A stretch of 64,000 bases of DNA from Methanofollis aquaemaris (GTDB lineage Archaea; Halobacteriota; Methanomicrobia; Methanomicrobiales; Methanofollaceae), in NCBI RefSeq assembly GCF_017357525.1, contig NZ_CP036172.1, forward strand, positions 1,152,561 to 1,216,560, written 5' to 3'. The position numbers and the translations under genes are program-made. The notes under the pieces are model-generated. The model had not been told where the DNA came from. It saw only the letters and a list, made by a program, of their open reading frames with translations, and ran no database searches. Shown piece by piece: positions 51,081 to 57,034 of this stretch (positions are counted from its first letter, which is position 1; each line of letters starts with the position of its first letter).

Positions 51081-51917
51081 TTATTCAGGAGGATCATCGT
51101 CCCCGAGGTGGCGCCGGATGAGGGCCCATGCGACGCTCATGCGGCCGGGAAGGTCGGGCAGGTCGTCGGGGGAGAACCATCCGGCCTCCTCGACCTCCGC
51201 GCCGTCGGGCCGCACCTCGCCGCCGGCGTACTCGGCGAAGAACCCGGCCATCAGGGAGTGGGGGAAGGGCCAGGGCTGGCTCCCGAAGTACCGGAGGTTT
51301 TTGATCGAGACCCCGGTCTCTTCGGCGACCTCGCGGGCGGCGGCGTGTTCGAGAGTCTCGCCGGGTTCGACGAACCCGGCGACGAGGGAGTAGCGGCCGG
51401 GCGGGAACCTGGGCGAGCGCACGAAGAGGATCTCACGCCCCCGCCTGACCAGGACGATCACCGCCGGGGTGAGCGCGGGGTAGACGACCCCGCCGCACCT
51501 GGGGCAGACCTTCGCCACTTCGCCCTCTTTGCGGACCGCAGGCTCGCCGCACCGTCCGCAAAACCGCGTCGTTTCGTCGAAGTGGACGAGTTGCACGGCC
51601 CGCCCCGCGATGGCGAGGCTCTCCTCGTCCACCCGGCAAAAGAGGTCGCGCAGGCCTTGCGGGGTGAGGCCTGGCGGGACGGCGTCTGTGCCGAGGGCGT
51701 AGAAGGGGATGCCGTCGAGGGTGCCGAGCGGGATGGCGTCCGAGGGGTCGGTGCCGTCGGGGAGGGCCGGAAGAATCGGCGAACCGCTTCCATCGCAGAA
51801 GACCTCGCCGCCGCGGACGAGGAGCCACCTGGACGGCCCGGCGGCCGGGTGGTCGGGATGGAAGGCGAGATGTTCGACGGCGAAGTGCGGGCGGGGCACA
51901 GGCTCATGCCCCGGCAT
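51081..51917 (-). CDS. nudC: NADH pyrophosphatase / deNADding Nudix hydrolase
   Basis: 278 residues. The middle holds a zinc ribbon (FCGRCGEPAVR then VCPRCG), followed by the Nudix box GFVEPGETLEHAAAREVAEETG and the NudC-specific SQPWPFPHS motif just downstream, which selects NAD(H). The enzyme splits NAD(H) to NMN(H) and AMP and in bacteria removes NAD caps from RNA. The start overlaps the end of the iron-sulfur flavoprotein gene by 14 bp, so both are translated together; placing it with two redox enzymes suggests a role in pyridine-nucleotide turnover. Confidence 0.93.
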   Translation of the reverse strand: MPGHEPVPRPHFAVEHLAFHPDHPAAGPSRWLLVRGGEVFCDGSGSPILPALPDGTDPSDAIPLGTLDGIPFYALGTDAVPPGLTPQGLRDLFCRVDEESLAIAGRAVQLVHFDETTRFCGRCGEPAVRKEGEVAKVCPRCGGVVYPALTPAVIVLVRRGREILFVRSPRFPPGRYSLVAGFVEPGETLEHAAAREVAEETGVSIKNLRYFGSQPWPFPHSLMAGFFAEYAGGEVRPDGAEVEEAGWFSPDDLPDLPGRMSVAWALIRRHLGDDDPPE

Positions 51918-52485
51918 GGATCTTCTTCAGGAGCCAGGCCATGTTCTGCCCGAGGATCTGCATCGTCTCCAGCCCCTCCGCGTCCTCTTCCACCTCGCCG
52001 GGCCCGAGGCCGAGCCCCAGGTTCCAGTACGAGGAACCGACGGTGACCATGTTGCTGATCCCGAAGAGGTGGTTGATGGTGTCGTAGGCGTGGATACCTC
52101 CGGCGCGGCGGACCGCGACGACGGCCGCCCCGGCCTTGCGGGCGAAGAGCCCGCCGTTCGCGATCGAGACGAACCCGGCGCGGTCGATGAGGGCCTTCGT
52201 CTCGGTGGAGACGTCGGCGAAGAAGGTGGGCGAACCGATGATGATCCCGTCGGCCGCGGTCATCTTCGCGATGCACTCGTTGACGACGTCGGTCTCGATG
52301 ACGCACCGTCCGTCCTTCTTCTCGAAACATTTCATGCAGGCGGTGCAGCCGTGGACCGGCCTGCCGCCGATATGCACGAGTTCGGTCTCGATGCCTTCCT
52401 TCTCCAGTTCCAGCAGCACCTCCCTGAGGAGGCGGGCGGTGTTCCCGTCTTTACGCGGGCTCCCGTTGAACGCGACGACTCTCAT
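51904..52485 (-). CDS. Iron-sulfur flavoprotein (Isf-type, NAD(P)H-FMN family)
   Basis: 193 residues, flavodoxin-like fold: FNGSPRKDGNTARLL binds FMN phosphate, and IIGSPTFFADVS the isoalloxazine. The compact cluster motif C47-x2-C50-x2-C53-x7-C61 (GCTACMKCFEKKDGRC) is the hallmark of archaeal iron-sulfur flavoproteins, which pass electrons from ferredoxin and in some species reduce O2 or peroxide. It is 45 bp downstream of a ferredoxin-type aldo/keto reductase and overlaps nudC. Confidence 0.92.
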   Translation of the reverse strand: MRVVAFNGSPRKDGNTARLLREVLLELEKEGIETELVHIGGRPVHGCTACMKCFEKKDGRCVIETDVVNECIAKMTAADGIIIGSPTFFADVSTETKALIDRAGFVSIANGGLFARKAGAAVVAVRRAGGIHAYDTINHLFGISNMVTVGSSYWNLGLGLGPGEVEEDAEGLETMQILGQNMAWLLKKIHAGA

Positions 52486-52530: not shown

Positions 52531-53661
52531 TTATTTCTCGAAGAGCGAGACGGCCTCTTTCAACACTTCTGGGATCTCGATCCCCTGCGGGCAGAGGGAG
52601 AGGCACATCCCGCATTCGGTGCACCACGAGGCCGACCCGCCTTCGCCGAGGAGGGAGCGGTAGAAGAACGCCGCATACGCGGGGTCGTCGTAGAGCGAGG
52701 CATTGTTCACCTGGGCCAGGCACTCGGGGATGTTCACCCCGCACGGGCAGGGCATGCAGTACCGACACCCGGTGCAGGGGACGGCGAGCCGCGCCCGGTA
52801 GACCTCACGCACCGCGTCGATGACTTTGTGCTCTTCGGGCGAGAGCGCACCGGGCCGGGCGGCTTCGGCGGCGGCGAGGTTCTCGTCGAGCGCTTCCGGC
52901 GTCCCCATCCCGGAGAGGACGGTCGTCACCTCGGGGTGATCCCAGACCCACCCGAGCCCCCACTCCGCAGGGCTCCGGCGCACCGGGGCCGCGGCAAAGA
53001 TCTTCTCCACGTCTTCGGGAGTTTTTCCGGCGAGGAGGCCGCCGCGCAGCGGTTCCATCACGACGACCGCGAGGCCTTTCTCCGCGGCGTACCTGACCCC
53101 CTCGGTCCCGGCCTGATAGTGTTCGTCCAGATAGTTGTACTGGACCTGGCAGAGATCCCAGGCGTACTCGTCGACGATCCGCGTGAAGGTCGGGAGGTCG
53201 TCGTGGAACGAGAACCCGGCGTACCGGATCCTCCCGTCGGCCTTCGCCTCGTCGAGGAAGGTGTCGACCTCCAGGTCCCAGAGTTTGTTCCACCGCCGCC
53301 GGGTGAGGGCGTGGACCAGGTAGGCGTCGAGGTGGTCGGTGCCGAGGCGGCGGAGTTGTTCGTCGAGGCAGCGGTCCATCTCCTCGCGGCTCTCCACCTT
53401 CCATGAAGGGAGTTTGGTCGCGAGGAACGCCCGCTCCCGGTAGCCGTCGGCAAGGGCGCGGCCGACGATCCTCTCGCTCTCGCCGTTGTGATACGGCCGG
53501 GCGGTGTCGATGTAGGTGGCCCCGCCGTCGACCGCCGCCCGGATCAGGGCGATGGCCGCCGCGTCGTCGACCCGGCCCTCGGGGGTCTCTGGCAGGCGCA
53601 TGCACCCCATGCCGAGGACGGGGAGAGATTCTCCTGATGATGGCATCTGTCGATAGAGCAT
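52531..53661 (-). CDS. Aldo/keto reductase with C-terminal ferredoxin domain
   Basis: 376 residues. The barrel has the catalytic tetrad D52, Y57, K83 and H117 (YIDTARPYHNG, ATKLPSW, AYLVHAL). The last 90 residues carry two cysteine sets (PCTGCRYCMPCPCGV and WCTECGMCLSLCPQG), indicating iron-sulfur clusters, as in the ferredoxin-fused AKR group of anaerobes. It likely reduces an aldehyde or ketone with NADPH or via clusters. GGAG lies nine bases before ATG 53661. First gene of the operon with the iron-sulfur flavoprotein and nudC. Confidence 0.92.
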   Translation of the reverse strand: MLYRQMPSSGESLPVLGMGCMRLPETPEGRVDDAAAIALIRAAVDGGATYIDTARPYHNGESERIVGRALADGYRERAFLATKLPSWKVESREEMDRCLDEQLRRLGTDHLDAYLVHALTRRRWNKLWDLEVDTFLDEAKADGRIRYAGFSFHDDLPTFTRIVDEYAWDLCQVQYNYLDEHYQAGTEGVRYAAEKGLAVVVMEPLRGGLLAGKTPEDVEKIFAAAPVRRSPAEWGLGWVWDHPEVTTVLSGMGTPEALDENLAAAEAARPGALSPEEHKVIDAVREVYRARLAVPCTGCRYCMPCPCGVNIPECLAQVNNASLYDDPAYAAFFYRSLLGEGGSASWCTECGMCLSLCPQGIEIPEVLKEAVSLFEK

Positions 53662-53975: not shown

Positions 53976-55829
53976 ATGGGAGACGGACACGAAAAAGACA
54001 AAGTCATCTTTGCAGCGACGATGGCCTCGACCTTCGAACCTGACTCGATGACCAACGACAAACTCGAAGCAGCGACGAAAGGGCACGGATCTCTGGTCAT
54101 CCCGGTCTACGCAGCGGCGAACTCGATCGCCGAGGATATCTTCTGTTCGATTGCCGGGCCAGAGATGAGCCTGATGGGCCGCATGACCGTCGTGGACGCC
54201 GCCGCCGGCGAACTACCCCTGGACATGGTCATCGAAAAAGCAGTGCGGGAGGCGATGAACGCCGGAGCCGAACCCGCGAACGCCGCCCTCATCGTGGCCT
54301 CGCTCGCCTACTTCTCAGGTTCCTGCGCCAGGTCGGGTGTCCCGCTCGGCAACCGGAAACTTGGCGCCATCGCACGGATCCACGCCGGAGCGGCACGGAC
54401 CAGTGCGATCGCCCTCGTCACCGGCAAGTCCACCCACCGTATCCAGGCGTTCCCTGCCTATATGGCGATCTACGAAGCACTCATGGACAAAAAACTTACC
54501 AGGGTCGACGGTTCCATCCTCCCGCCCTTCATCTCGGGCGGAACGATCTACGGCCACTCGGCCCTCGGCGAGGACTACAACATCCCTGAACTTGCCTACA
54601 ACGCCGCAAAGGTCGGGACCGAAGCGATGATGAAGAGCATGGCCGGCGCCGGGATCACGCCGCTCGCCCTCTGGCCGGCCCTCATCGGGGCCGCGGTGAC
54701 GATGGAGATCGTCCATCCCGACGCCATCCTCGGCGAGGAGTTCGGGAAGTTCGGCCGCGTCGATTCGTCGTACCTTGCAGGCAAGGGTGCGCGGGACGCC
54801 GCCGGTCTGCCAGAAAAACTCCATATCAGGGGGACGCACGAGGAGTACGACACCGCCAAGGTGCTCGGCGACTTCGGGCTGATCCTCAAAGACATCGGGG
54901 GCCCATCGGTCATCGGGTCGATGGCACTCTCTGAAATTTTCGCTGCCTTCGAGGAGGCGGCATCCATCGGTGCCGGGTTCTCGGGCGGACCGGTGAACCC
55001 GCCCCTCGGCCACCTTGAGGGCGATTGCGTCCCGGCCCTCAGGCTTCTCATGCAGCACCACGGCGACGTCTTTGCGGTCTCGGAAGCGATCCGCGACTAC
55101 AAGATGGACGCCTTCATCGACCCCGAGATGGCGCTCTGCGGCCTCAACACCATCGCGAGAAAGGCCGAGCAGGTGACCCGCGGCAAGGTCACGAAAGCCT
55201 GCATCCTTGCCTCCGAAGGCGTGCGGGACCGCGCGATCTACCGGCGGGCCGCCCACACCTACGACATCATCAAGGCCGGGAAGACCGTCGCCGACGCCAC
55301 GCACATCCTCGACGAGGAGAGACTGGCCTATGTCGAGCGGCGGGGTTCGGCGATCCTCTCGGCGTTCACCGGCCGCGAGATCGCGTTGAAGTTCACCGCG
55401 ATCAAGGCCCACGGCCGCCGGACCGACAAGTTCACCGCGCGCTACTGGGGTTTTGACTCCAATGTCTCGTACGACGTCTCCATCGACGGGAAGCAGTACC
55501 ATGTCGAGAACCTCAGCGGAAAAGAGGTGCCGGCCTTCGCCCTCGAAGGGAAGAACCGGGACGATCCCGACTGGCCGGTCGCCCTCTTCTGCGGGTCCAT
55601 CCTGACGCAGGAACTCCAGTACATCGGCCACACCATCATCAACATCACCGTGCCCGCGGCGGTTGCCGCCCTCATCGGGATGGAGGCGAAAGACGCCGCG
55701 AAAGGGGCCGAAGACGGGGCGTTCCTCACCCGCGCCATCCCCGGCGCCGACGAGAAGGCCTTCGAGGTGGCAAAACTCGCCCAGCGGGTGTACGCAAAGA
55801 TCAACGAACCCTTCCCGCCCGCAGCATGA
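53976..55829 (+). CDS. Uncharacterised 617-residue protein coupled to larC
   Basis: 617 residues; I recognise no family. ATG 53976 follows GGGAGAG at a good spacing. It has no signal peptide or membrane helix of usual length; Ala/Gly-rich helices dominate, with segments such as PVYAAANSIAEDIF, GHSALGEDYNIPELAYNAAKVG, GGPSVIGSMALSEIFAAFEEAA, VRDRAIYRRAAHTYDIIKAG and HTIINITVPAAVAALIGMEA. Conserved-looking polar residues include several His (GHLEGD, MQHHGD, TYDII context). It overlaps larC by ATGA (55826-55829). Because LarC completes the nickel-pincer nucleotide cofactor, a nickel or nickel-pincer enzyme or a cofactor-pathway partner is a reasonable hypothesis, no more. Confidence 0.85.
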   Translation: MGDGHEKDKVIFAATMASTFEPDSMTNDKLEAATKGHGSLVIPVYAAANSIAEDIFCSIAGPEMSLMGRMTVVDAAAGELPLDMVIEKAVREAMNAGAEPANAALIVASLAYFSGSCARSGVPLGNRKLGAIARIHAGAARTSAIALVTGKSTHRIQAFPAYMAIYEALMDKKLTRVDGSILPPFISGGTIYGHSALGEDYNIPELAYNAAKVGTEAMMKSMAGAGITPLALWPALIGAAVTMEIVHPDAILGEEFGKFGRVDSSYLAGKGARDAAGLPEKLHIRGTHEEYDTAKVLGDFGLILKDIGGPSVIGSMALSEIFAAFEEAASIGAGFSGGPVNPPLGHLEGDCVPALRLLMQHHGDVFAVSEAIRDYKMDAFIDPEMALCGLNTIARKAEQVTRGKVTKACILASEGVRDRAIYRRAAHTYDIIKAGKTVADATHILDEERLAYVERRGSAILSAFTGREIALKFTAIKAHGRRTDKFTARYWGFDSNVSYDVSIDGKQYHVENLSGKEVPAFALEGKNRDDPDWPVALFCGSILTQELQYIGHTIINITVPAAVAALIGMEAKDAAKGAEDGAFLTRAIPGADEKAFEVAKLAQRVYAKINEPFPPAA

Positions 55830-57034
55830 AGACGCTGCTCATCGACCCCAGAGTCGGGGGGATTGCAGGCGATATGCTCGTCGCCGCACTTGTCGACCTC
55901 ACCGGTTCGACACAGCCCCTCTTCACTCTTGCCGAAGCGATCGTCACCTTGCGGGGGTGCTCGACCTTCGACGTCGGCATCACCGAGACCGAGAACGGGA
56001 TCAGGGCGAAGAAACTCTCGATCGAGATCGCCGAGAAGAGGAGCGGGTCCGACGGCAACCTTGCGACGGCGATGGAGGAGGTGATCGAGATGGTCGGCCT
56101 CTCGAACGGTGCGGCGGCGAAGGCCAGGGCCGTGCTGAGAGATCTGATCGAGGCAGAGAAGCGACTGCACCCCGCGGGGTTTTCCCGTCATACCGTTGCC
56201 TCGGCCGACACGATCTTCGACATCCTCGGCCCGCTCCTCATCATGGAGGAGGCCGGGCTTTTGGGCTGTCCGGTGTATGCGACCCCGCCGGCCCTCGGCG
56301 GCGGGACAGTCCCGACCGGCAGGGGCGAGGTCGGCGGACCGGCGCCTGCCGCCCTTGAGATCTGTGCCAGGCACCGGATCCCCGTCTCGGAGAGTTCGCT
56401 TGCCATGGAACTCACCACCCCGACCGGCGCCGCCCTCCTCGCAAATCTGGCCACGGTGGTGGATCGTTTCCCGGCGATGGTCCCCACCCGCATCGGGTAC
56501 GGTGCGGGCACCCGCGAGAACAACGGGCGGCCAAACCTCCTGCGGGTCGTCGAGGGGGAGATCGGCGATCTGGTCGAAGAGCGGATCGTGATCCTGGAGA
56601 CCAACCTCGATGACATCACCGGGGAGACGGTCGGCTACACCTTCGAGCGTCTCTTCGCAGCCGGTGCGGTGGACGTCTTTGTCACCCCGGCGATCGGGAA
56701 GAAGCACCGTCCGGTGCAGGTGCTCTCGGTGATCACCGATCACGCCCGGTACCTGGACCTGATCAGCATCATGATGGACGAAACCGGCACCCTGGGGGTA
56801 CGGGTGCGGGAAGAGCCGCGGCTCGTCGCCGACCGGAGCCGCGAGGCGGTGGAGGTCGCGGTGGCCGGGCAGATTTTTCAGGTGCGGGTGAAGACCTCTC
56901 ACGTCGGGGAGCGGGTGGTGGCGGTCAAGCCCGAGTACGAGGACATGAAGGAGATCGCGCTCGCCCTCGGCATGCCCTTCAGGGCGGTGGCCGACGAGGT
57001 GCACCGGCAGATCCCGGGGATCTGCAGAGATTAG
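55826..57034 (+). CDS. larC: LarC-family nickel insertion protein (DUF111)
   Basis: 402 residues. LarC (pyridinium-3,5-bisthiocarboxylate mononucleotide nickel chelatase) inserts Ni using CTP to form the nickel-pincer nucleotide of lactate racemase and related enzymes. N-terminal signature LLIDPRVGGIAGDMLVAALVDL (in two parts), central SADTIFDILGPLLIMEEAGL and TPTGAALLANLAT, and C-terminal ETNLDDITGETVGYTFERL and VKTSHVGERVVAVKPEYEDMKEIA agree with the family; length is normal and it is a single frame. No larA, larB or larE homologue lies in the window. Translation is coupled to the unknown gene upstream. Confidence 0.92.
   Translation: MKTLLIDPRVGGIAGDMLVAALVDLTGSTQPLFTLAEAIVTLRGCSTFDVGITETENGIRAKKLSIEIAEKRSGSDGNLATAMEEVIEMVGLSNGAAAKARAVLRDLIEAEKRLHPAGFSRHTVASADTIFDILGPLLIMEEAGLLGCPVYATPPALGGGTVPTGRGEVGGPAPAALEICARHRIPVSESSLAMELTTPTGAALLANLATVVDRFPAMVPTRIGYGAGTRENNGRPNLLRVVEGEIGDLVEERIVILETNLDDITGETVGYTFERLFAAGAVDVFVTPAIGKKHRPVQVLSVITDHARYLDLISIMMDETGTLGVRVREEPRLVADRSREAVEVAVAGQIFQVRVKTSHVGERVVAVKPEYEDMKEIALALGMPFRAVADEVHRQIPGICRD

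Follow-up and report, generated by a model that had tools for sequence, protein, structure and literature searches.

What connects a sizeable protein that belongs to no recognised family with LarC, a protein of nickel-pincer nucleotide (NPN) biosynthesis? The question is raised by two genes on the forward strand of a 64,000-nucleotide stretch of the Methanofollis aquaemaris chromosome, referred to here as the window. The first gene (53976–55829) has an ATG start that follows a purine-rich stretch and encodes a protein of 617 amino acids, called P617. The second (55826–57034) encodes a LarC paralogue of 402 amino acids, a member of PF01969 that scores 318 bits against this family and lies above the NCBIfam cut-offs for both LarC1 (TIGR00299) and LarC2 (NF052512). 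The stop codon of P617 and the start codon of LarC share the four bases ATGA (55826–55829, forward strand), so that the overlap reported in the initial annotation of the locus is confirmed, and by its sequence it represents a putative case of translational coupling. In NPN biosynthesis, LarB and LarE prepare the pincer nucleotide, which is metallated by LarC, and LarC also cytidinylylates the precursor with CTP (PMC11796402). The initial annotation took the linked LarC to be a maker of NPN, and its partner to be either a new NPN-dependent enzyme of the racemase or epimerase class or a chaperone for the cofactor.

P617 is a real gene, with relatives that are 45–98% identical and with dN/dS values of 0.04–0.10 against congeners. 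Within the genus its dN/dS is far below that of its LarC, and the protein is under strong purifying selection. The view that it belongs to no nameable family has held up, in that searches of Pfam, NCBIfam and the PDB with the single sequence or with a profile turn up no relative, and no match to an unrelated enzyme has emerged. DUF7065, Fe-ADH_2 and GetA were considered as identities and rejected because the matches fall below the cut-off, occur in few members of the P617 family or are implausible. A relationship to LarC itself was rejected for lack of profile similarity, and the viral contigs searched contain no relative. An apparent 1186-amino acid fusion form in one genome (G330) is merely an open frame that extends out of the gene, upstream of an ordinary start.

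The racemase or epimerase assignment has fared less well. P617 does not match the LarA profile PF09861 (Lar_N/DUF2088), and its alignment, when compared with eight archaeal LarA proteins by hhalign, gives a probability of 0.1%. An AlphaFold2 model of the full-length protein, with 23 sequences as input, is poor (pLDDT 58) and its Foldseek matches are meaningless. Residues 352–617, the C-terminal half (55029–55826, forward strand), give a confident model (pLDDT 84.6, pTM 0.79) that is helical with one small beta sheet, for which there is no match below E=0.4 among PDB and viral folds. There is thus no relation to LarA by profile, by sequence or by the fold of the C-terminal half, and nothing in the data points P617 to the racemases.

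The conservation of P617 is pronounced. An alignment of 22 diverse homologues, the most distant of them 45% identical, has about 107 invariant positions, which include five histidines (H37, H194, H247, H283 and H346), four lysines (K128, K151, K376 and K396), arginines that include R127, R134 and R141, and several aspartates and glutamates. In LarA, a lysine covalently holds the NPN, a histidine coordinates the nickel and one or two further histidines are catalytic. Invariant residues of these two kinds are present in P617 as well, though on no mapped structural site, and, as a point against the NPN reading, they are common in all sorts of enzymes. The same conservation bears on the idea that P617 is no enzyme and instead stores the cofactor or nickel, or acts as a chaperone or scaffold for either. 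Such a role would suit a protein that is linked to a cofactor-handling domain and has no recognisable catalytic fold. However, the invariant positions, of which many are polar (H, K, R, D or E), together with a dN/dS below 0.1, resemble those of an active site, and the Methanomicrobiales that have no LarA show no other NPN user for a chaperone to serve. A purely accessory function is considered very improbable.

A search that covered 393 genomes of its phylum finds P617 in 46 of them, and it is present in 22 of 61 relatives. The pairing with LarC, first seen in the window, is conserved: in all 36 measured loci with a full LarC, which come from several families, LarC starts between -4 and +18 nucleotides from the P617 stop, and in 14 of the 36 the 4-bp overlap is identical to that of Methanofollis. 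When the neighbours of the 38 P617 loci with longer flanks were clustered, LarC or LarC2 was the sole neighbour to recur across lineages (35/38 loci), so that LarC homologues are linked to P617 nearly always. At locus L047 the LarC partner was detected by HMM and at L053 P617 lies at a contig edge. The exceptions are L102 (genome G330) and L038 (G230), where P617 is intact without an adjoining LarC and the genome has one LarC.

Two P617 loci stand out by the label of their contigs. L045 carries P617 (71% identity) and LarC on a contig labelled Desulfuromonadaceae, and L053 carries P617 (63% identity) at the edge of a contig labelled Thermoprotei; transfer or mis-binning is possible in both. 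Just upstream of P617 in Methanofollis, the reverse strand (51904–52485 and 52531–53661) encodes an aldo/keto reductase of the ferredoxin type and an FMN reductase that depends on NADPH. A single distant f8 locus likewise has both in the vicinity of P617 (loci noted are L092, L088 and L091), and as neighbours they are non-recurrent, occurring in 4/38 and 3/38 loci, respectively.

P617 and its LarC also come and go together. In a panel of 80 genomes, at least two LarC proteins are found in 22 of the 24 Methanomicrobiales with intact P617 and in 2 of the 24 without it (Fisher p=4.8e-9). In both of those P617-less genomes the extra LarC is a relic: G014 has a truncated LarC that is 75% like a linked copy from Methanoculleus, and G054 a LarC2 remnant that is 86% like such a copy. 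P617 and LarC are decaying jointly at L057 and in G343, and G046 has an internal deletion in a P617 that lies next to a LarC. Among the decaying pairs (L057, L135, L136, L132 and L133) there are internal deletions, a deletion-made junction of P617 and LarC, and LarC2 remnants. The patchy distribution among the relatives and the presence of decayed copies in several genomes could be taken to mean that the pairing is accidental, or that it hitch-hikes on a mobile segment. Against this stand the lack of any other recurrent neighbour across lineages, the tight spacing kept across families, the different LarC2 architecture of the partner in the families labelled f8 and f14 (see below) and the joint gain and loss of P617 and the extra larC. 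For practical purposes this explanation is refuted and its probability negligible.

The linked LarC is an unusual member of its family. Its LarC1-like half (55826–56560, forward strand) has the HFHEVG motif replaced, reading FSRHTVAS at that place, and its LarC2 half (56579–56992, forward strand) contains the motifs ETNLDD..GE, GKKHRP, ETGTLGVR and KPEYED. A comparison of 34 housekeeping LarC proteins with 27 P617-linked copies indicates that this pattern is general. In the linked copies the LarC2 residues E243, T244, N245, D247, D248, E252, D268 and K277 are kept in 27/27, as are K278, R280, G306, G309, R311, R323, K342 and E356; all LarC2 residues that are invariant in the housekeeping proteins are retained except P273, H317 and one instance of L308. 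The LarC1 motif residues F106, H107, E108, V109 and G110, on the other hand, are retained in just 0–13 of the 27 (F106 in 1, H107 in 13, E108 in 5 and G110 in none), H149 is retained in 3, and in several linked proteins whole LarC1 segments are deleted. In the same 18 genomes the LarC1 and LarC2 halves are 54.5 and 49.7% identical among housekeeping copies and 44.8 and 57.9% identical among linked copies, which reverses the order of conservation. Because the within-genus dN/dS reveals no clear contrast between the two halves of the linked LarC, the case for a reversal rests on this wider comparison.

The LarC2 half of the linked LarC aligns with PDB 6bwo, which, together with 6bwq and 6bwr, represents the solved CTP-binding domain, LarC2. 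Having kept LarC2 and shed the LarC1 motif, the linked protein would be expected to carry out CTP and pyridinium-nucleotide chemistry with no insertion of nickel. The suggestion in the initial annotation that this LarC makes NPN thus finds no support, since its LarC1 half is missing the motif present in every canonical LarC, and LarB, LarE and a further, intact LarC are encoded in the genome for that purpose. On the 2.75-Mb single-contig chromosome of M. aquaemaris, larB is found at 2,229,660 (242 bits) and larE at 2,253,979 (196 bits), both above cut-off and far from P617, and a second, canonical larC lies at 1,394,726 and is the best LarC match of the genome (385 bits). The absence of larA, larB and larE is thus correct for the 64-kb window, but larA alone is truly absent, with no copy in the whole genome. 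To our knowledge, the LarA superfamily (PF09861/COG3875), comprising racemases and epimerases, contains the only NPN enzymes. Judged by its gene content, M. aquaemaris therefore encodes the standard NPN pathway whilst its sole known user is missing.

P617 does not by itself account for this situation. In the 80-genome panel, half of which lacks P617, nearly every genome encodes LarB, LarE and one canonical LarC, whether or not it has P617. P617 thus tracks the additional LarC and not the core pathway. The panel Methanomicrobiales contain no LarA; it occurs in most f8, f14 and f22 members and in some f9 members, and is also present in most of the f8, f14 and f22 genomes that bear P617. P617 was rejected as the explanation of larBCE without larA in methanogens, as genomes that have neither P617 nor larA retain larBCE; the pathway is not there for P617 alone. 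Given how widespread larBCE is in the LarA-less Methanomicrobiales, a further general user of, or role for, NPN must exist. A weak Lar_N match in Methanofollis (L146:531-1640; G005:C1:1053732-1053887) falls in a DUF362 protein that carries 4Fe-4S domains, and many larA-less methanogens have similar weak matches on the same stretch of the profile. DUF362 proteins and LarA are grouped in one Pfam clan (PMC11770544), and the protein is possibly another candidate for an NPN user or binder.

The most distant P617 proteins provide a different view of the partnership. In f8, which presumably comprises Methanosarcinaceae-type genomes, and in f14, P617 is 45–49% identical to that of Methanofollis and is followed by a gene for LarC2 alone, which in the two cases scanned exceeds the NF052512 cut-off. 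Eight f8 loci also contain LarB, and most of them a full LarC as well, within about 6 kb; larE was not found among the f8 genes scanned around P617, and larA is absent from the f8 clusters. In Methanofollis, P617 is clustered with neither larB nor larE. In a LarC2 tree, which is weakly resolved owing to few columns and long branches, the linked copies form one clade (100/95) and the stand-alone LarC2 proteins another (100/99), and the two are not joined. A single origin for them is unsupported by the tree, and the association may therefore have arisen twice or diverged far. Proteins that consist of LarC2 only are also seen in f9 genomes in which P617 was not detected (L145; G130:C30:56672-57082; compare MK0293, PDB 3c19), which suggests independent roles for LarC2.

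LarC2 might have been recruited to P617 for CTP chemistry that is unrelated to NPN, either to cytidinylylate some other phosphate metabolite used by P617 or to regulate P617 through CTP binding. The loss of the LarC1 motif, which makes it less likely that the linked copy handles nickel, is compatible with this, as are the existence of stand-alone LarC2 outside lar clusters (MK0293) and the two P617 genes without a LarC partner. However, the f8 clusters unite P617 and LarC2 with larB and a full larC, and the LarC2 residues kept in the linked proteins are those of canonical LarC, suggesting the same substrates. Such a role apart from NPN is considered unlikely.

With a partner that retains LarC2 and sheds LarC1, P617 is most simply taken for a protein that consumes the cofactor and has a LarC2 of its own to load or activate it. 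P617 would then represent a non-LarA enzyme family that uses NPN or a cytidinylylated NPN dinucleotide and is served through the LarC2 domain of its own LarC. A rough probability of 0.48 is attached to this reading, in which the link between P617 and the cofactor is deduced from gene linkage. The original proposal of an NPN-dependent partner is in this sense retained, given that the conserved linkage to LarC makes a non-LarA partner the best interpretation, and only its placement among the racemases and epimerases finds no support. LarB, LarE and the housekeeping LarC, whose genes are present elsewhere in the genome and whose activities are predicted from their families, would make NPN. The linked LarC, inserting no nickel, would bind CTP and the pyridinium nucleotide and, by analogy with LarC2 biochemistry, may activate the cofactor, hand it over or trim it for P617. 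P617 would in turn bind the cofactor, for which the histidines and lysines conserved in all homologues, five and four in number, may serve as nickel ligands or points of attachment, and would catalyse a hydride-transfer type of reaction on a substrate.

It can also be envisaged that P617 acts jointly with LarC2 in making or altering a cofactor, with P617 in the place of LarC1 in some other step of metallation or tailoring, to give a variant pincer nucleotide, with another metal or as a CMP-capped dinucleotide, for use by other proteins. LarC1 is lost from the linked LarC just where P617 is present, and in f8 and f14 LarC2 alone is retained beside P617, as though P617 had assumed the function of the missing domain. 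Moreover, the f8 clusters hold the biosynthetic larB and larC without larA, and the larA found elsewhere in Methanosarcinaceae-type genomes is a possible user. Yet profile comparison reveals no resemblance of P617 to LarC, almost all of the genomes concerned also have a canonical LarC, and the biosynthetic proteins of the pathway are small and widespread, in contrast to the large and patchily distributed P617. Such a biosynthetic function is judged unlikely. For P617 as a cofactor-consuming enzyme, a bolder formulation is that it constitutes the first non-LarA nickel-pincer family, with a fold of its own, whose cofactor, a cytidinylylated NPN dinucleotide, comes from a LarC2 stripped of the nickel-inserting half. 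This is doubtful at present; if true, it would amount to a second mode of cofactor use.

Comparison with known systems helps to place the pair. P617 resembles LarA in occurring in genomes with LarB, LarC and LarE and, in f8, in taking the usual place of larA in the lar cluster. It differs in size (617 against approximately 420 amino acids), in having no match to the LarA profile and in a C-terminal half that has no PDB fold match. LarC is a CTP-dependent nickel-inserting cyclometallase (PDB 12bi for the full-length protein and 6bwo for LarC2), of which the linked protein is a member with its LarC2 motifs kept and the HFHEVG of LarC1 lost; the f8 and f14 partners, as LarC2 alone, are like the stand-alone LarC2-type protein of Methanopyrus, MK0293. 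The separate fates of LarC1 and LarC2 provide a natural experiment on the role of each half of LarC. If genome G396 is that of Methanosarcina acetivorans, a methanogen amenable to genetics possesses a P617 homologue.

In a survey of genomes, about 15% encode larBCE but no larA, which has led to the prediction of non-LarA NPN proteins, with none found so far (PMC11796402). Similarly, larBCE in Haloferax has been annotated as possibly serving an enzyme with an NPN cofactor (PMC8305020). P617 fits the prediction in being a non-LarA protein of an organism, M. aquaemaris, that has larBCE and no larA. It departs from it in that the prediction is chiefly cyanobacterial, whereas P617 is seen, in profile searches centred on its own phylum, in archaea and on one bacterial-labelled MAG contig, and in that methanogens lacking P617 are also without larA. 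P617 is therefore best described, from its genomic context, as a candidate non-LarA NPN protein in methanogens and as part of the answer, with a concrete and conserved gene pair, P617 and LarC, now taking the place of "some unidentified" NPN protein.
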